This document shows, piece by piece, positions 13,320-21,043 of a DNA stretch of 64,000 nt (positions within the stretch are counted from its first letter, which is position 1; every line of letters starts with the position of its first letter). Location: positions 62,001 to 126,000 of the forward strand of contig LJZR01000010.1 of assembly GCA_001314865.1 (NCBI GenBank). The letters run 5' to 3'. Both the position numbers and the translations under genes were made by a program. The DNA comes from Phormidesmis priestleyi Ana (GTDB lineage: Bacteria > Cyanobacteriota > Cyanobacteriia > Phormidesmidales > Phormidesmidaceae). Under the pieces are notes generated by a model that saw nothing but the letters and a program-made list of their open reading frames with translations, did no database searches and was not told where the DNA came from.

Positions 13320-14267
13320 TTATCCCACTGGTTCGGGATCTTGAAACAATGGCGTGCTCAAATATCGCTCTCCAAAGCTCGGCTGAATCATCACAATCAG
13401 CTTCCCTTTGTTTTCGGGGCGCTTCGCTAGTTTGACGGCTGCACACAGCGCTGCACCTGTAGAAATGCCTGAAAGAATGCCCTCTTCTCTGGCTAAGCGT
13501 CTGCCAAATGCGATCGCCTCATCATCCTGCACTAGCATCACTTCGTCTATCAAAGCTTGATTGAGCACCTTAGGCACAAACCCCGCCCCAATTCCTTGAA
13601 TTTTATGCGGCCCAGGCCGACCACCCGACAGCACCGCACTGTTCACAGGCTCTACGGCCACCACCTTAAACCCAGCCTTTCGCTGCTTAAGCACCTCACC
13701 TACGCCCGTAATGGTGCCGCCTGTTCCTACGCCTGCGACCAAAAAGTCCACTTCCCCGTCTGTATCCTGCCAGATCTCCTCTGCTGTAGAGCGTCGATGC
13801 ACTGCCGGATTCGCCGGATTGTCAAATTGTTGCAGCATATAGGCATCCGGCAGGCTTTCTACCAGCGCCTTTGCTCGCTGAATGCAGCCGCTCATGCCTT
13901 CCATCCCCGGCGTTAGCTCTAGTCGTGCCCCATAGGCTCGCAGCATCGCCCGCCTTTCGCTACTCATCGTTTCGGGCATCGTCAGCACCAGGTCATAGCC
14001 CTTCGCCGCCGCCGCCATCGCTAGTGCAATTCCTGTATTACCCGAGGTCGGTTCTACCAGGGTTGTCTTTCCTGGCACAATGTCGCCCGCAGCCTCAGCC
14101 GCCTCAATCATACTGATCCCAATTCGATCCTTCACCGAAGCCGAGGGATTCATCCCCTCTAGCTTCACCACAATGTCAGCGACACACCCCTCCATTTGCG
14201 GAATCCGATGCAGCCGTACCATCGGAGTATGTCCAATCAGCTCAGTCACATTATTAGCAATTCGCAT
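13320..14267 (-). CDS. cysK: cysteine synthase A (O-acetylserine sulfhydrylase)
   Basis: A 315-residue PLP enzyme making cysteine from O-acetylserine and sulfide. The PLP lysine is in NPSASVKDR (about residue 44), the substrate loop is TSGNTGIA, and the phosphate-binding loop is GTGGTITG. C-terminal SGISTGAAL fits. It starts 5 bp after the stop of the Rrf2-type regulator, so both are one transcription unit, pointing to cysteine or sulfur control. Confidence 0.96.
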
Positions 14268-14272
14268 AGGTT

Positions 14273-14707
14273 CTATATGTAATACATCAAATCCACTTGC
14301 TGGCGGGCGTTTCGCTGATCTACTAAGTCTTGCAGCGTATATTTCTCTAGCACGGCTTCAGCCCCTTGCCGTACTTCGTGCCATACCTCCCACACCGCCG
14401 CACCCTCTGCCGTCGTGGGTGACTTTACTTCCTTCGCCTTCGCCTCAAACCCTTCAATGCAGCTCACAACATCTAGCAGCGTTATTTTCCACGGTTCGCG
14501 AGTCAGCAAATATCCGCCCTTCGCTCCCCGCTGGCTCTTTACAAATCCGGCCCGACGCAGTGTGGCTAGCAGTTGCTCCAAATAGCGATCAGGAATCGCC
14601 TGCTCAGCCGCAATTTGACAAATTCTCAGCGGCTCGCCTTTGCTGTAATGCAGGCTCAGTTCTATTAGCGCTAGCAGCGCATATTCACTTTTACACGATA
14701 GTTCCAC
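14273..14707 (-). CDS. Rrf2-family regulator, CymR-like
   Basis: A 144-residue winged-helix regulator of the Rrf2 family. The N-terminal helix-turn-helix segment reads [20 protein letters not shown], then [41 protein letters not shown]. The cysteine triplet that binds Fe-S clusters in IscR and NsrR is not seen, so it resembles CymR, which senses the cysteine synthase complex. Placement immediately before cysK supports this (inference). The start is GTG at 14707, matching the family N-terminus. Confidence 0.92.
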
Positions 14708-14879
14708 AAATTTTACAAGTAAAAGCCAATAGAGACACAGCAGCAGACGGCTACTGTCAAACAGCCCTTATTGGCATTATACTCCGGTTCTACAGTGGGG
14801 ATTACTACAATTCAATTCAGGCCATCCCCGCATAAACAGGCTCCAACAAGCCGCATAAATAGGTAACCGCCAAAGTAAA

Positions 14880-14904
14880 AGGGACCTCGCAATGCGAAGT
14901 CCCT
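14880..14904 (-). terminator. rho-independent terminator after the porin gene
   Basis: Inverted repeat AGGGAC-tTCGC / GCGA-GTCCCT with a 3-nt loop and one mismatch pair. Read on the minus strand it is followed by TTTTACTTT. It lies about 70 bp past the porin stop. Confidence 0.8.
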
Positions 14905-14940
14905 TAAATTAAACCAAAAATTGTGTCAAACGTAGTATTT

Positions 14941-14967
14941 ACAACGCCGAGCCAAGCTCGGCATTGT
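14941..14967 (-). terminator. stem-loop just after the porin stop
   Basis: Stem ACAA-GCCGAGC / GCTCGGC-TTGT with loop CAA and one mismatch. There is no U-run, so it may protect the mRNA 3' end or act together with the terminator further on. Confidence 0.55.
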
Positions 14968-14974
14968 AATGGGT

Positions 14975-16420
14975 CTAGAAGCTGAAAGTAGCGCGTAGGG
15001 CACCGTAGACGTTGTCACCATCTTCAGTGTCGTTGTCAGCGTAGATAACAGCAGGTGTAAAGGAGAGGTACTCATTGACGTTGAGGTTGTAGTAAGCCTC
15101 AACAACCAGAGGATCTAAATCGCCCTGAGAACTCACAGCACCGTATACACCGAACTCATTACCCACACCAAACAGGTCAGCGATCGCAATACCACCGCTG
15201 TAGGTATCCATGTCATCGACACCATTCATGTCAGTAGTCGCGTAGTGACCACCGATAGTAAAGCGTCCGAAGTTGAGGCTGAGCAAGCCTGCAATCGTGT
15301 TCTCAGCAGAGCCGACTGCAGCATCGCCTGCGCCAATGTAGGTTACTGCCGCGTTAAAGATGCCGTCAGTCAAAAAGTTGAGCTGAGCGATGTAGCTGTT
15401 GTCGTTAAAGAGACCACCATCTTCGGTATTTACATTGCTAGAGCCCGATGAGTAACCGAGGTCAAGCACGAGGTTGTCAGAAAACGCAATGTTTGCGCCT
15501 GCACCAAAGTCACCACCTGGATATAGGTCATAAAAGACAGGGCCACTGACATCAGCAACAGCAGAATCAAAAGGCACAATGGTGCTTGTGACGAAGTCAT
15601 CTGTGACAACACTGTTAGCCGCGATGATACCGCTGATGCGGTTACCAACTGGGAAGCTGTAGTAAACGTCATCCAACCCAACGTTATCTTCAATACCGCC
15701 GCGACGACCGCTCTGGCTAGATAAACCACCTGCATTGACCAAAGAACCTGCATCATCAGAAGCCTGCAAACGAATGCGCAGTCTATCTTCGCCGGTAAAG
15801 CTAGTGTCAAAGTTCAAGCGAGCGCGATATTCAAACGTTGCATCTGCTTCTTCGAGCGTTACGCCAGCAACGTCTGCTTCACTAAAAGGCACAACCAAGT
15901 GAGCATCCAACTGACCACGCAACTTAGTTGTCGTCGAGAACTGGTTGGCTTCTAGCTCTGCTACGTCTGCTTCAATCGTGTCTACACGACCACGGATGGT
16001 AGCTAGCTCGGCAGCAAACTCTTCTTGCAAGCGGCGGATGGTGTCTAGGTCGCTGCCTTCACCAATCAACTGAATAACTACGTCTAAGCAAGCGTTCAAA
16101 CCAGCAGCAAACTCGTAGCGAGTCAAGGCGCGATTGCCGCGATAGGTGCGGTCGGGGTAGCCTTCCAAGCAACCGTACTCTTCTACCAAGCGCTGGAGTG
16201 CCGTAAAGGCCCAGTCGCTAGGCTGTACATCAGCAAGTTCAGATACGCTTGTCACCTGTGCTAGCTGAATTGGCTCAGCAACAACGATGTCAGAAACGTT
16301 AGATACTGCTTCAGTCTCTACAGATAGCGCTTCAGCAGCGACTGCGTTGCCTGATACAGCGACAATTGCGCCAAAAGCAACGGGAGCTGCTAGTAGGGCT
16401 TTCCAAGTCATATTTGTCAT
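14975..16420 (-). CDS. SLH/OprB-type outer-membrane porin (iron-uptake porin family)
   Basis: A 481-residue cyanobacterial porin. Residues 1-28 form a signal peptide (ALLAAPVAFGAIVAVSGNAVAA). A single SLH domain follows (DVQPSDWAFTALQRLVEEYGCLEGYPD..ALTRYEFAAGLNACLD, about residues 63-115), which anchors to peptidoglycan. A short coiled coil (LDTIRRLQEEFAAELATIRGRVDTIEADVAELEAN) precedes an OprB-like beta barrel ending in the outer-membrane signature ...GALRATFSF. The family is annotated as iron-uptake or Som porins. The leader contains GTGTGAGGA at the ribosome-binding site, complementary to sRNA Yfr1. Terminators follow the gene. Confidence 0.95.
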   Translation of the reverse strand: MTNMTWKALLAAPVAFGAIVAVSGNAVAAEALSVETEAVSNVSDIVVAEPIQLAQVTSVSELADVQPSDWAFTALQRLVEEYGCLEGYPDRTYRGNRALTRYEFAAGLNACLDVVIQLIGEGSDLDTIRRLQEEFAAELATIRGRVDTIEADVAELEANQFSTTTKLRGQLDAHLVVPFSEADVAGVTLEEADATFEYRARLNFDTSFTGEDRLRIRLQASDDAGSLVNAGGLSSQSGRRGGIEDNVGLDDVYYSFPVGNRISGIIAANSVVTDDFVTSTIVPFDSAVADVSGPVFYDLYPGGDFGAGANIAFSDNLVLDLGYSSGSSNVNTEDGGLFNDNSYIAQLNFLTDGIFNAAVTYIGAGDAAVGSAENTIAGLLSLNFGRFTIGGHYATTDMNGVDDMDTYSGGIAIADLFGVGNEFGVYGAVSSQGDLDPLVVEAYYNLNVNEYLSFTPAVIYADNDTEDGDNVYGALRATFSF

Positions 16421-16427
16421 TTTTTAT

Positions 16428-16436
16428 TCCTCACAC
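16428..16436 (-). promoter_or_regulatory. porin ribosome-binding site with predicted Yfr1 sRNA pairing
   Basis: On the minus strand GTGTGAGGA ends 7 nt before the porin ATG and contains the Shine-Dalgarno sequence GAGGA. It is perfectly complementary to nine bases of the ultraconserved unpaired motif of cyanobacterial sRNA Yfr1 (ACUCCUCACAC), which is known to repress Som porins by blocking this region. The yfr1 gene itself is not in the window. Confidence 0.65.
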
Positions 16437-16939
16437 CTTAAATAAATAAAAAGGCTATCAGTGCATTAAAGAGCTAGCAGCGCAGTACAAGCCCAAGGTG
16501 TAGACACTTTAATCAACTGACCTCTCACATCCAGTCATAAGTACAAAAACACACAACTTTTAACAGCTTATATGTATGTACTTCATGAACCTGCCCAAAA
16601 TACTAACAGATCGTTCCTGTATTTCTCTAGCCTCTATGACAGTTTCGTGGGTTACTTTCAACTGACACTGCTCCATGCATTCACGACCGTGCATCTACAG
16701 AGGTAGCAATCTATGCCCTACTGATAAAACCCTTGAAACGAAGGAGCACAGGCAGTAAATCGCTTACGCATAGCCGCTATATGTAAACGACATTATGGAG
16801 ATATAAATCGCTAAACATTAACTTAGATCCTGCAACTGATTAGTTTTTCTTAACTAAAAAGGCGCTCTTAAGACTCGTACTTGGCTAGAGCGATGGCAGC
16901 GCCCCTGACTTGATAATTTATATCTATTTAAAAAACCAT

Positions 16940-16969
16940 CCGCTCCCATCTAATAAAAGATAGGAGCGG
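16940..16969 (-). terminator. rho-independent terminator of the short-peptide unit
   Basis: A 12-bp stem (CCGCTCCTATCT with AGATGGGAGCGG, one G-U pair) and a 6-nt loop, followed on the minus strand by ATGG and six T. It is strong, and lies about 85 bp past the small ORF. Confidence 0.85.
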
Positions 16970-17021
16970 TCTGGTCGGGTCTTCAGGTTAAAACCAAACT
17001 GCCGGAAGGAAATCCAGCTAT

Positions 17022-17050
17022 CTAGCTTTAACATCTGATGCTAAAGCTAG
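17022..17050 (-). other. 9-bp stem-loop after the small ORF
   Basis: CTAGCTTTA and TAAAGCTAG are perfect inverted copies around an 11-nt loop, starting 2 nt after the stop codon of the 23-codon ORF. There is no U-run; a structured 3' element is likely. Confidence 0.6.
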
Positions 17051-17052
17051 TT

Positions 17053-17124
17053 CTAGAGAACAGCCCCGGCACGCAGCCGGTTTACATCAACCTGGAGACC
17101 CACGAATGTATCACTTACAGACAT
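17053..17124 (-). CDS. putative 23-residue peptide (unrecognised)
   Basis: A short ORF beginning MSVSDTFVGLQVD and ending RAGAVL. What supports it is context: a near-perfect Shine-Dalgarno (GGAGGTG at 17131-17137) is 6 nt before the ATG, a perfect stem-loop follows the stop, and a strong terminator closes the unit at 16940-16969. The upstream leader has two further inverted repeats, and an independent terminator separates it from ycf39. The peptide has no membrane helix or cysteine and matches no small photosystem or cytochrome subunit I know. It may be a real small protein, or a leader peptide in a regulatory RNA; no function is assigned. Confidence 0.5.
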   Translation of the reverse strand: MSVSDTFVGLQVDVNRLRAGAVL

Positions 17125-17221
17125 GGGCATCACCTCCTAATTCCCTAAACGATTGCTCTCTAAAACAAGCTTAGAGGCAACTGAACGCTCTGCGTTCACA
17201 AGAGCCAATATAGCACGCTAA

Positions 17222-17252
17222 AAAAAAGCTGTGTCGTTAAGCGCGTAACGAC
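17222..17252 (-). terminator. rho-independent terminator after ycf39
   Basis: GTCGTTA and TAACGAC pair around a 6-nt loop; on the minus strand the stem is followed by ACAGC and seven T. It ends the ycf39 transcript about 60 bp past its stop. Confidence 0.85.
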
Positions 17253-17311
17253 CTAGTGACTACCGACCTAGCGTTTAACAACACAGTTCGATAACACGGC
17301 TAAATAACAAC

Positions 17312-18274
17312 TTAGAAAGGAACTTTTTTCTTAGCCGACTTACCGCTTTCAAAGTCGAGTTCTTTGAGCTTTTTCAGAATTCTGGTGAAATATTCCTGCA
17401 AGTAGTCTTCTAAGGTTGTAATTTCTCTTTGATCAATTCCAAAGGTTTCATACACGCTGTCCATGGGTGCATCCATCACATTCCCACTTGCGCTCACCTC
17501 AGTGAAGGCCAGCCGATCGGCCAAGTCCCATGTCCATTGAAAAAACGCTGCAATCTTACGAATCGCTCTTAACAGCGCAGGTGGCATTTGAGAAACGCTT
17601 GCTCGCTGATCGGAAAGGCGCTCGCATAGGCGGATGATTTCATAAGCGCCCCAAGCCCGAGTTCCTGCAAGCGGGAAAGTCGCATTTTCAGCAGCCGGTA
17701 GCTTTAACGACTTAACGGCAAACTTAGCGATGTCTTGACTGTTCATGTAGGCGATCGCGCCTGCCTCACCCATTACCCATACAGACTGCCGTTCCAAAAT
17801 AGGAATGGCATACTGACCAATCAGCCCCTGCATAAATCCGCAGGGTCTAAAGATGGTGTAGTTAATGCCCGACTCTTCTAAAAACTTCTCAATGCAGCTT
17901 TTAATTTCCATCAGCGGCACGTTGGGATACTCGCCCGCACCATAGATAGAAAAGAAAATAAACCGCTTGACGCCCGCATCCTTAGCCGCTTGGATCAAAG
18001 CGACCTTGCCATGCCAGTCAACATCATAAATCCCCTCTTTCTCAGCCGGTCTAGAAGTGGCTGCATCAATCACAGCATCGACATCTTCAAAGCAGGGCGG
18101 CAGGCTATTGGGGCCTGTCAGATCGGCTTTTACCAACTGAGCGCCCCACTCTCTTAGAAAGCTCGCCTTTTGAAAATTCCTAACTAGACACTTCACGTCG
18201 TAGCCTTCGTCCAGGGCTTGGCGAACGATTTGCCTTCCCAATGTGCCAGTTGCGCCAACGACTAATAAGACCAT
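17312..18274 (-). CDS. ycf39: Ycf39-type photosystem II assembly protein
   Basis: A 320-residue atypical short-chain dehydrogenase/NmrA-like protein. It starts MVLLVVGATGTLGRQIV with the nucleotide-binding GATGTLG loop. FFSIYGAGEYPNVPLMEIKSCIEKFLEESGINYTIFRPCGFMQGLIGQYAIPILE matches Ycf39, which with Hlip proteins helps insert chlorophyll into newly made D1 of photosystem II. No catalytic YxxxK dehydrogenase pair is obvious, fitting a structural role. ATG 18274 is chosen because the Rossmann strand begins there; a longer start adds 25 unrelated residues. petM lies about 200 bp upstream on the same strand. Confidence 0.9.
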   Translation of the reverse strand: MVLLVVGATGTLGRQIVRQALDEGYDVKCLVRNFQKASFLREWGAQLVKADLTGPNSLPPCFEDVDAVIDAATSRPAEKEGIYDVDWHGKVALIQAAKDAGVKRFIFFSIYGAGEYPNVPLMEIKSCIEKFLEESGINYTIFRPCGFMQGLIGQYAIPILERQSVWVMGEAGAIAYMNSQDIAKFAVKSLKLPAAENATFPLAGTRAWGAYEIIRLCERLSDQRASVSQMPPALLRAIRKIAAFFQWTWDLADRLAFTEVSASGNVMDAPMDSVYETFGIDQREITTLEDYLQEYFTRILKKLKELDFESGKSAKKKVPF

Positions 18275-18470
18275 GAGTGCGGTGTAAACAAAACTTAATA
18301 TGCTTCTCAGTTTATCAGAAGTCGTCGCAGCCAAACTGACTGCGGACAAGAGGTTATGTAAATAGTCTTATGACCCGTTGCGTGAACGCTATATACAAAA
18401 GCTATATCAGCAAATGATTAGCGAACGGAATTCTGATAATTAAGTAACTCCGTTCTCCCTGTGTCGGGTT

Positions 18471-18575
18471 TTATTCCTCTCCGCCCTGTACCTTGAGCAT
18501 CAAAAAGCCTACGCTCAGGCCTACCAAAATCATCCCGGAAACCAGCACAGCTGTTGTGAAAATTTCGCCGCCCAT
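18471..18575 (-). CDS. petM: cytochrome b6-f complex subunit PetM
   Basis: A 34-residue single-helix subunit of the cytochrome b6-f complex. It reads MGGEIFTTAVLVSG.., one membrane helix (about residues 8-27), then LMLKVQGGEE. The N-terminal GEIF and the C-terminal LK-QGGEE are the PetM hallmarks, and length equals the family. It is easily missed because it is so short. The ATG at 18575 follows GGAGATATTTGAGCA, a good ribosome-binding site. It sits next to ycf39, another thylakoid gene. Confidence 0.95.
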   Translation of the reverse strand: MGGEIFTTAVLVSGMILVGLSVGFLMLKVQGGEE

Positions 18576-18916
18576 TGCTCAAATATCTCCTGTTTTTATA
18601 ACAAATACCTAATTACAGATAAAGGTGATTGACCTTATCTATATTCGGCAGTTGAAAGCCAGCATTTTGTTTACTACGCCGTTTACAAATTGTTTACGCA
18701 AGTATTGCTAGCTGGGCTTTCAATCGCCATTTTAGAGTGTTTTGGGTCCTGTAATACGCTTGCAAAAGATCTAGAATCTATTAGACCCAAAGGCGAGTAG
18801 GTCAGGAAGCTGGCTTACCGCTCAGCATTTACAGCTCAGTGCTTGATATACCCACTCATTTAATAACTCAACACTTAATACTTAATACTCACTTAATACT
18901 CAATAGAGTCACCCCT
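18576..18916. other. petM-pdxA divergent promoter region
   Basis: About 340 bp between divergent genes. It should contain both promoters. Short imperfect repeats of acttaatact type (about 18866-18905) precede the pdxA start. No RNA or ORF is supported. Confidence 0.4.
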
Positions 18917-20089
18917 ATGACCTCTGGTTTTGCGGCAACCCTTGTTAATCCTTCCACTCAACATAAGTCCTGTCAGCATGAGCAAACTCAGGATTCGAAG
19001 CAAAGGCCCCGGCTGGTGATGACGCTAGGCGATCCTTCGGGCATTGGACCAGAGGTTGTTTTAAAGGCGCTGAGTGACCATCGGTTCGAGCAACGGGCCA
19101 ATATTACGGTGATTGGCGATCGCGCTCATCTCCAGCGTACCTATGATCAAATTAATGATCAAATCAAATCTGCCGCGCCACATACCATCCTTAGAGATCC
19201 TGCCACACTTAACTTTATAGATATTGCCAGTCCTAAAGCCGTGACTGATGGACTCACAACGGGCATTGGAAACGCGAGTAGCGGTGAAGTCGGCTTCCAA
19301 ACTTTAAAGGCCGCGATCGCCCACACCCTATCCGGCAAATTTGACGGCATCGTCACTGCCCCCATTGCCAAATCAGCATGGCTCGCCGCCGGGCACCACT
19401 ACCCCGGCCAAACCGAGCTACTCGCAGAGATGTCGGGAACGCAGCGATTTGGCATGCTCTTTGTCGCTAAATCGCCCTACAGTCAGTGGACGATGCGCAC
19501 CCTGCTTGCGACCACTCATATCCCGCTTAAGGCCGTTCCTACCATGCTCTCGCCACAGGTCATGACGCTCAAATTAGAGCTACTGATTGAATGTCTCCAG
19601 CGAGACTTTGGACTTAGCCATGCCAAAATTGCGATCGCTGGGCTCAATCCCCACAGCGGTGAGCAAGGCCAGCTCGGGCAAGAAGAACAAGACTGGCTCA
19701 TTCCCTGGATCGATGAGCAGCAGCAGCGGTTTCCTCACATTCAGCTAGAGGGGCCTATCCCGCCCGATACGATGTGGGTTCAACCAGGGCAAGCATGGCA
19801 TACCCACCAGCCCCTGCCTGCTCAGAGCCAAATAGCTCACGACGGCTATTTAGCGCTCTACCATGACCAAGGGCTGATCCCGGTTAAACTATTGGCCTTT
19901 GATTTAGCTGTAAATACAACTATCGGACTGCCCTTTGTGCGGACATCGCCCGACCATGGTACGGCGTTTAATATTGCCGGGCAGGGCATTGCGCGATCGC
20001 AAAGTACAGAAGCCGCGCTTGAACTCGCTATCGAACTCGCCACTCAACGGCTATCTCAGGAACAACAAACCCTTAAGACAAACCCTTAA
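18917..20089 (+). CDS. pdxA: 4-hydroxythreonine-4-phosphate dehydrogenase
   Basis: A 390-residue PdxA, the NAD-dependent, divalent-metal enzyme of the DXP-dependent vitamin B6 pathway. Family segments: [51 protein letters not shown], the metal-binding [39 protein letters not shown] and the C-terminal [18 protein letters not shown] 18917 is used; residues 1-36 before the domain are unconserved, so initiation further downstream is possible. PipY in this window also relates to PLP, but the genes are far apart. Confidence 0.95.
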
Positions 20090-20098
20090 GACAAAACC

Positions 20099-21043
20099 TT
20101 AAAACAATGCCAGCTGGCTAGGCGGATCTATTAATCCATTCCATGGCAGCGGCGGTATATTGACTGGCGCTGATGCTTCTAAAGTTGCCTGAAAATAGCG
20201 AGCAATTTCCGGCGACTCCTCCTCCATTGGGCAATGTACAAAAAAGTAAACTTGCTTTCCCTGCGCCAGCCAATCGCCTACTTGACTTGCCCAGAGCGCC
20301 AAATAATCGTGATTGCGACGCAATCGGGGATGGCTGATGTAACGAACAATTACAAAGTCAGCCGTCGCAACCACCTGCAAAGGCACCTTTGGCTTACGGC
20401 GATTAGAGCGCAGCTGCGGGTCCACATCGCCTTCTTCTTCCCAGGCATACATGGGCCGCGTATCTAACAGAACCCGGCCTACACCCAAATCCGATAGCAG
20501 TGCATTCAGCTCAGCCATCGGTCCTTGGGCAAACCAATCTAAATGGCGAACTTCAACCGCAATAGGCGCGCTCGACCGAGGCCAAGCCTTTAAAAAGTTT
20601 TCTAAATCTTGGATCGCGGCTGGACTATAGCTTGGCGGTAGCTGAGCCATCACTGGACCTAAGCGATCGCCCAATCCCTGCATCAGTTCTAAAAAAGACA
20701 GCGCCGCCGGTAAATGAGCCATCAGTGGCCCTTCATGCGTCACCGCACGTGGCAGCTTAGGGCAAAACCGAAACTCAGGCGGCGTGTTGCTAGCCCATCG
20801 CTTCACGATGTCCTGACTGGGCACCGAATAAAACGTCGTGTTGCCCTCTACTGCCAGCATCCGCTCACCGTACAGCCGTAAAAAGTTTGTTGCCTGACTC
20901 TTCGCCGGGTAAAAATTTCCGACCCAATCTTTAAACGCCCACACAGCCAGGCCCAGTCGAAAACTCAAATCTTTTTGGTATTGACCAGCTGACGGCTGAC
21001 CAGTGCGCTCATCTGTAGTCGGTCTGCCCTTGTGCCCATGCAT
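20099..21043 (-). CDS. DUF72 family protein
   Basis: A 314-residue DUF72 protein with a TIM-barrel-like fold. Characteristic segments: FRLGLAVWAFKDWVGNFYP, YGERMLAVEGNTTFYSVPSQDIVKRWASNTPPEFRFCPKLPRAVTHEG, and VEVRHLDWF. The biochemical role of DUF72 is not established. ATG 21043 is chosen over a TTG 9 bp upstream. It converges with pdxA at only 9 bp distance. The residues before FRLGL are polar and variable. Confidence 0.9.
   Translation of the reverse strand: MHGHKGRPTTDERTGQPSAGQYQKDLSFRLGLAVWAFKDWVGNFYPAKSQATNFLRLYGERMLAVEGNTTFYSVPSQDIVKRWASNTPPEFRFCPKLPRAVTHEGPLMAHLPAALSFLELMQGLGDRLGPVMAQLPPSYSPAAIQDLENFLKAWPRSSAPIAVEVRHLDWFAQGPMAELNALLSDLGVGRVLLDTRPMYAWEEEGDVDPQLRSNRRKPKVPLQVVATADFVIVRYISHPRLRRNHDYLALWASQVGDWLAQGKQVYFFVHCPMEEESPEIARYFQATLEASAPVNIPPLPWNGLIDPPSQLALF

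Follow-up and report, generated by a model that had tools for sequence, protein, structure and literature searches.

Genomic context and architecture of the unit

The window, a 64,000-nt stretch of a contig of Phormidesmis priestleyi Ana, carries on its minus strand a compact unit of about 270 nt (window ~17200 to 16931). It is sited between ycf39, its upstream neighbour, and a downstream porin gene (14975-16420, minus strand), which was recognised as an ORF and is linked to the unit in many relatives. Behind the porin gene lie genes for a cysteine-synthase-like protein and for an Rrf2-like regulator (13320-14707, minus strand). A small ORF, MGGEIFTTAVLVSGMILVGLSVGFLMLKVQGGEE, lies between ycf39 and the next gene (18471-18575, minus strand). 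Its product presumably resembles PetM of the cytochrome b6f complex.

An earlier note on this DNA had described a self-contained unit of about 290 bp with a possible −10 element near 17205, two leader inverted repeats, a near-perfect Shine-Dalgarno (SD) sequence, a 23-codon ORF, a perfect 9-bp hairpin and a strong intrinsic terminator. All these parts were found on the minus strand, and the unit is conserved with variable neighbours. The promoter element is an extended −10, TGCTATATT, at 17215-17207 (minus strand), identified from the sequence and a motif count upstream of the relatives' units: TGYTANNNT is present in 136 of 170 distinct units and in 13 of 170 shuffled upstream regions. The inverted repeats form two hairpins in the fold of the window transcript (17198-17182 and 17181-17152, minus strand), and we infer a 5′ end of the RNA at about 17200, near these hairpins. 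On average, the leaders are more stably folded than their mononucleotide shuffles (mean z −1.5; 119 of 172 units scored). For the whole unit, the fold has a z of −7.2 and none of 100 shuffles was equally good.

The intrinsic terminator CCGCUCC...GGAGCGG with its T run (16970-16931, minus strand; stem 16969-16940) was defined by pattern and alignment. Double changes maintain its stem across 37 sequences. A separate terminator isolating the unit from ycf39 had also been claimed; a hairpin is indeed located at 17252-17233 (minus strand), but it is weak and recognised by pattern only. Generic scans were uninformative. A sigma-70 scan of 14000-21000 returned 1 site against 6.7 expected and missed the unit's own promoter, and terminator-like sites numbered 8 against 7.4 expected, no more than in shuffles. 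Since both scans stay near the shuffle level, they are no proof by themselves, and conservation decides.

Distribution and a diverged family

BLASTN with the 331-bp unit yielded matches in 113 of 143 genomes, ranging from genus to class (E ≤ 0.1). A covariance search in cyanobacterial genomes had been suggested previously. Covariance model R1, built from 33 sequences, was run on 386 genomes of the phylum and located the unit in 141 of them (E ≤ 0.01), which excludes a lack of conservation. Strong matches at E ≤ 1.4e-18 occurred in 120 of the 386 genomes, all of the window's own class by hand count. Three weak matches (E 6e-6 to 1.2e-3) in genomes that do not belong to the class were treated as chance. 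Rfam 15 gave no match at the gathering cut-off in the window and in six relatives (L040, L048, L051, L153, L201 and L210), and at E ≤ 10 weak chance-like matches only.

Individual units were located with a pattern that requires an SD sequence and a start codon. Therefore, SD and start are not independent evidence in this set. The pattern located 200 of 214 loci, comprising 172 distinct units. The 14 unlocated loci include two homologues by covariance model (L206 and L207), L172 and L183, which were also left out, eight non-cyanobacterial pattern matches among the matches listed, and two apparent chance BLAST matches inside genes (L033 and L034). Record titles covered the best 80 of at least 115 matches. 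The unit is mostly found at one place per genome, in its main and its diverged form. A second, weaker match was seen in two genomes (G099, contigs C112 and C329; G114, contig C1 at 2018484 and 2023818), possibly representing second or partial copies.

The diverged homologous form came to light through weak R1 matches (E 1e-3 to 1e-5) to a single family of small genomes. Of 81 genomes in this family, 52 gave a match to it (E ≤ 0.01). We call this family picocyanobacteria-like, an assumption based on genome size and on the context of porin and psbD. Its genomes of 1.6 to 1.8 Mb often had no match. All 33 distinct units read show the SD sequence GGAGGAGGTG and a 17-codon ORF with the stop TGA (33/33), and GUG replaces AUG as start codon in 12 of the 33. 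The peptide is mostly xxxSCxxxGLLIAENAx. The layout of the fold is the same as in the main family: the helix GGGUCUGCU/AGCGGACCC joins the ORF to the 3′ arm, and the terminator follows directly. In alignment A3, comprising 24 of the 33 distinct units, this long helix is nearly invariant, with one double-change pair, and covariation is mostly located in the terminator.

The micro-ORF

The SD sequence AGGAGGTGAT is located at 17138-17129 (minus strand) and is near-invariant in alignments A1 and A2. Its complementarity was judged against the canonical anti-SD sequence, which we assume for this strain because the 16S tail had no match in the draft genome of P. priestleyi Ana. Counted at SD distance before an ATG, the motif is found 4 times in the genome of this strain, and its reversed control twice. 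AGGAGGTGATGCCC is also present upstream of another gene of the own genome (L246 near 1500, contig C30), where a short leader ORF is possible; the gene behind it presumably encodes a protein resembling ribosomal protein L35.

The ORF MSVSDTFVGLQVDVNRLRAGAVL extends over 23 codons from the ATG at 17124 to the TAG at 17053 (minus strand), as defined by translation and by the relatives. All 172 located distinct units have an ORF of 16-27 codons, and 141 have exactly 23. The spacing from ATG to GGGTC is 20, 23 or 26 nt in all 172. A spacing other than 23 nt characterises 12 units (L009-L013, L022, L041, L043, L090, L163, L205 and L120), and by inspection these departures represent some 8-9 separate changes. 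The relative L207 has a larger ORF insert, again a multiple of three. A stop within 16 codons closes the alternative frame +1 in 145 and frame +2 in 164 of the 172 units. Two relatives show changes of another kind: a 1-nt deletion in the ORF of L045 results in a stop after 16 codons, and L040 has its start shifted by 2 nt without loss. From these comparisons we conclude that the reading frame is under selection. Selection on the amino acids seems less clear than that on the frame.

Codon changes were followed along a minimum spanning tree that connects 132 distinct ORFs of 23 codons, skipping edges with more than 8 differences. As only ORFs of 23 codons were included, the stop-codon row is true by construction and is not claimed as a result. 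Synonymous changes exceeded the expectation in codons 10-14 (28 versus 17.3) and in codons 15-23 (37 versus 24.2). Part of this excess, which falls in paired codons, may stem from G-U tolerance. The loop codons 2-7 showed no excess (12 observed, 14.9 expected), so that selection on the N-terminal amino acids need not be assumed. The loop motif AGU AGU AAA (window 17121-17105, and relatives) is kept as nucleotides, with almost no synonymous codons. Ser and Cys codons recur in the ORF loop of the main and the diverged family. The earlier note recognised no small protein in the peptide. For two 23-aa forms, Pfam and NCBIfam returned no family, queries this short being a weak test.

Long-range helices and competing folds

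The ORF strand pairs with the segment that precedes the terminator. Two long-range helices, H2 and H3, were recognised by covariation. The 5′ strand of H2, GGGUC UC CAGGUUGA, lies within the ORF at 17101-17087, and the 5′ strands of H3, CCGGCU and GCCGGGG, also within the ORF, at 17080-17064 (both minus strand). Alignment and covariation place their partners in a 3′ arm at 17007-16977 (minus strand), with those of H3 at 17007-16994, those of H2 at 16991-16977 and a conserved CCUUCC. These helices had been missed by the earlier note, which pointed to the perfect 9-bp hairpin. This hairpin, H4, is present in the sequence and is perfect, with the arms CTAGCTTTA (17050-17042) and TAAAGCTAG (17030-17022, minus strand), but it is a variable tip: its length and sequence vary among relatives, and it is nearly gone in L050.

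RNAalifold predicted 42 pairs for 37 sequences, 23 of them with double changes. For H2 and H3, 90.7% of the cells are paired, a share somewhat favoured by drawing the structure on one aligned sequence, and 17 of 26 pairs are changed on both sides. None of 500 shuffles reached this covariation in any of five measures. The signal vanishes when the partner strand is slid by 1-3 columns. One relative (L030, from 1533 on) seems to have extra sequence inserted behind the ORF, before the conserved 3′ arm, which returns about 100 nt later.

A third helix, H1, was seen as pairing in the alignment. It joins GCCCAUG (17128-17122) with CGUGGGU (17104-17098, minus strand), and this pairing hides the start codon. 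With 92% of the cells paired, H1 shows almost no covariation. Its GGGU is contested between H1 and the outer part of H2. Predicted folds from the SD onward, calculated for 33 sequences, favoured the outer H2 in 26 cases and H1 in 4. The full transcript of the window behaves differently in prediction: its best fold contains H1 (P 0.67-0.87) and is 3.9 kcal/mol better than a fold with forced H2 and H3. In this model, an H1-containing ground state would either speak against a simple reading or suggest two states in the species. H1 was also considered as the main switch; this role is weakened by the scarcity of covariation and the preference for H2 in 26 of 33 folds, yet H1 is best in the window transcript. 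In the relative L038, GCCC is changed to GCUC, GGGUC to GAGUC and GACCC to GACUC jointly, as expected if H1 and the outer H2 both form.

A probable ribosome-loaded small RNA

What the comparisons show directly is a conserved anatomy, covariation and a reading frame that is kept. The unit is probably free-standing and its RNA at the same time a tiny mRNA, that is, a ribosome-loaded, dual-function small mRNA/sRNA. That the RNA is translated, that its hairpin opens and that it has a given function is inferred from these. According to the predicted structure, the RNA would be one long hairpin with the terminator directly after it. The SD and the start codon would be at the open foot of the hairpin, while the ORF ascends the 5′ strand, its stop codon lying close to the tip. 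Most likely, a ribosome loading at the strong SD and translating the ORF would pry the hairpin open; without translation, the hairpin would re-form. The output may be the micropeptide, the freed 3′ arm as an sRNA, or both, or else the holding of ribosomes. The earlier note had left open whether the unit is a small protein gene, a leader-controlled sRNA or a toxin-antitoxin component. The ORF with a kept frame inside co-varying helices fits best to a leader-controlled or dual-function RNA, and the toxin-antitoxin option found no support.

Far more tentative is a ribosome-operated RNA switch operating across most of the cyanobacterial class, in which each translating ribosome would unzip the RNA and free a trans-acting, C-rich 3′ arm. 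We hold this to be possible but rather doubtful. If it were true, the activity of the RNA would report ribosome availability, and the signal would be translation itself and not the peptide. Apart from this switch, the micro-ORF in the core helix, kept from filamentous cyanobacteria to the picocyanobacteria-like family, raises concrete questions about an abundant sRNA to which no function has been assigned: is it translated, and is its fold set by translation? The unit would also offer an exceptionally clear example of coding and structural selection acting together on a single RNA strand.

A purely non-coding RNA may use its SD to dock 30S subunits, for ribosome parking or sensing, with the ORF as a by-product. 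Such docking would suit the conserved and very strong SD, given that the RNA is reported to be extremely abundant, as well as the SD and AUG that are free in 26 of 33 predicted folds from the SD onward and a loop conserved as nucleotides and not as amino acids. Against a by-product speak a frame kept through length changes, the alternation of AUG and GUG, and a stop always within 16-27 codons. We regard pure docking as unlikely, and the dual-function RNA remains the preferred explanation.

Neighbouring genes and further alternatives

Downstream sequence of at least 3 kb was available for 80 distinct units; 50 of these have a porin gene downstream on the same strand, and none has one on the opposite strand. 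A PCD-like gene is often found between the unit and the porin gene. A same-strand match to cysteine synthase is present downstream in 19 of 80 units, at +385 from the unit's ATG in L153, directly after the unit, and at +811 in L125. The upstream genes vary: in the 160 distinct units for which the upstream sequence covers at least 300 bp, these were psbD (70), nadC (13), cobB (11), ycf39 (7) and others (59).

The constant orientation of the porin gene behind changing upstream genes would suit a cis-acting leader, an attenuator or an actuaton, that sets the read-through into a downstream porin operon. Actuatons are known from Synechocystis, according to the available text of PMC5386190. Against this stand the 30 of 80 units for which the two-query porin search gave no match, a search that may miss more diverged porins. 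They include L032, which we take to be Thermosynechococcus, as well as L152 (Thermosynechococcus), L098 (Planktothrix) and L153 (Myxosarcina). As the RNA is conserved in these units, it is independent of the porin gene. An obligatory porin leader was taken seriously and then lowered for this reason. In addition, no conserved antiterminator was noticed by eye, and somA has its own mapped start in S. elongatus, as stated in the available text of PMC6091082. Control of the porin operon by read-through is accordingly improbable in our view.

In a plain micropeptide gene, the RNA structure would merely stabilise the mRNA. The synonymous excess in codons 10-23 and the kept frame are in line with such a gene. 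The ORF has only 16-17 codons in several lineages, however, the peptide of the diverged family is quite different, the N-terminal codons lack the synonymous excess, and the covariation seems stronger than stability would require. A plain micropeptide gene is therefore very unlikely. A type I toxin mRNA of a putative toxin-antitoxin pair, to which a small ORF, strong SD, long-range folding and stable terminator would correspond, is hardly credible and was dropped, finding no support in copy number (one place in most genomes searched), spread (near-universal in the class) or peptide character (not membrane-like by eye), and homologues are abundant in normal growth (available text of PMC6091082).

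Relation to known RNAs

The unit of L040, a relative we take to be S. elongatus PCC 6301, follows psbD, and 2,726 nt separate its ATG from the second porin ORF downstream. This arrangement recalls Sye_sRNA1 of S. elongatus UTEX 2973. The available text of PMC6091082 places the mapped start of Sye_sRNA1 2,714 nt before the start of somA. It describes an sRNA that exceeds all others in abundance, in control as well as high-temperature cultures, of about 200 nt on Northern blots and with dRNA-seq data, which is transiently lowered in high light. There, 53 homologues with a conserved structure are reported, mostly downstream of psbD or cobB, and confirmed experimentally for Anabaena 7120, S. elongatus 7942 and two Synechocystis strains. 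The same text names as homologous TU475 of Synechocystis 6803 and TU2045 of 6714. No function is assigned to the homologues in that text (PMC6091082).

The unit shares with Sye_sRNA1, as described there, the character of a single conserved cyanobacterial RNA with a conserved structure, with psbD or cobB upstream and somA about 2.7 kb downstream. The synteny with psbD or cobB, the distance to the porin gene and a conserved secondary structure were all found for the unit. Based on the psbD context and the porin distance in L040 (2,726 versus 2,714 nt), the unit was filed as a Sye_sRNA1 homologue. By position and synteny, it apparently is one, the comparison being by description. The dRNA-seq and Northern data of PMC6091082, in its available text, contradict for the homologues, but not for this strain, the absence of a transcript that the earlier note had named as a possible outcome.

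The available text of PMC6091082 treats an sRNA and mentions no ORF or porin linkage; the ORF, the long-range helices and the picocyanobacterial form are added here. In the open-access literature searched, neither the micro-ORF within the core helix nor the diverged family nor a frequent porin linkage was found; these make the function of a very abundant RNA accessible to direct tests. Our verdict is a known RNA family with a new feature.

Yfr103 of marine picocyanobacteria is, in the available text of PMC5069720, likewise a very abundant RNA with a conserved structure, an overlapping taxonomic range and no assigned function. It has 290-328 nt and seven paralogues in Synechococcus CC9605 (PMC5069720, available text), whereas the diverged form is shorter and usually has a single place in a genome. 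Given length and paralogue number, identity with Yfr103 was not adopted, a separation made by description only. The actuatons described in Synechocystis are alike in being abundant sRNAs with a terminator and often a sense gene downstream (PMC5386190, available text), but the unit is linked to the porin gene in 50 of 80 units only. The dual-function sRNAs SgrS/SgrT and SR1/SR1P combine a short ORF and a conserved RNA structure in one transcript, as outlined in the available text of PMC5126843. The unit resembles them in this, and differs in that its ORF directly makes up a strand of the conserved helix.
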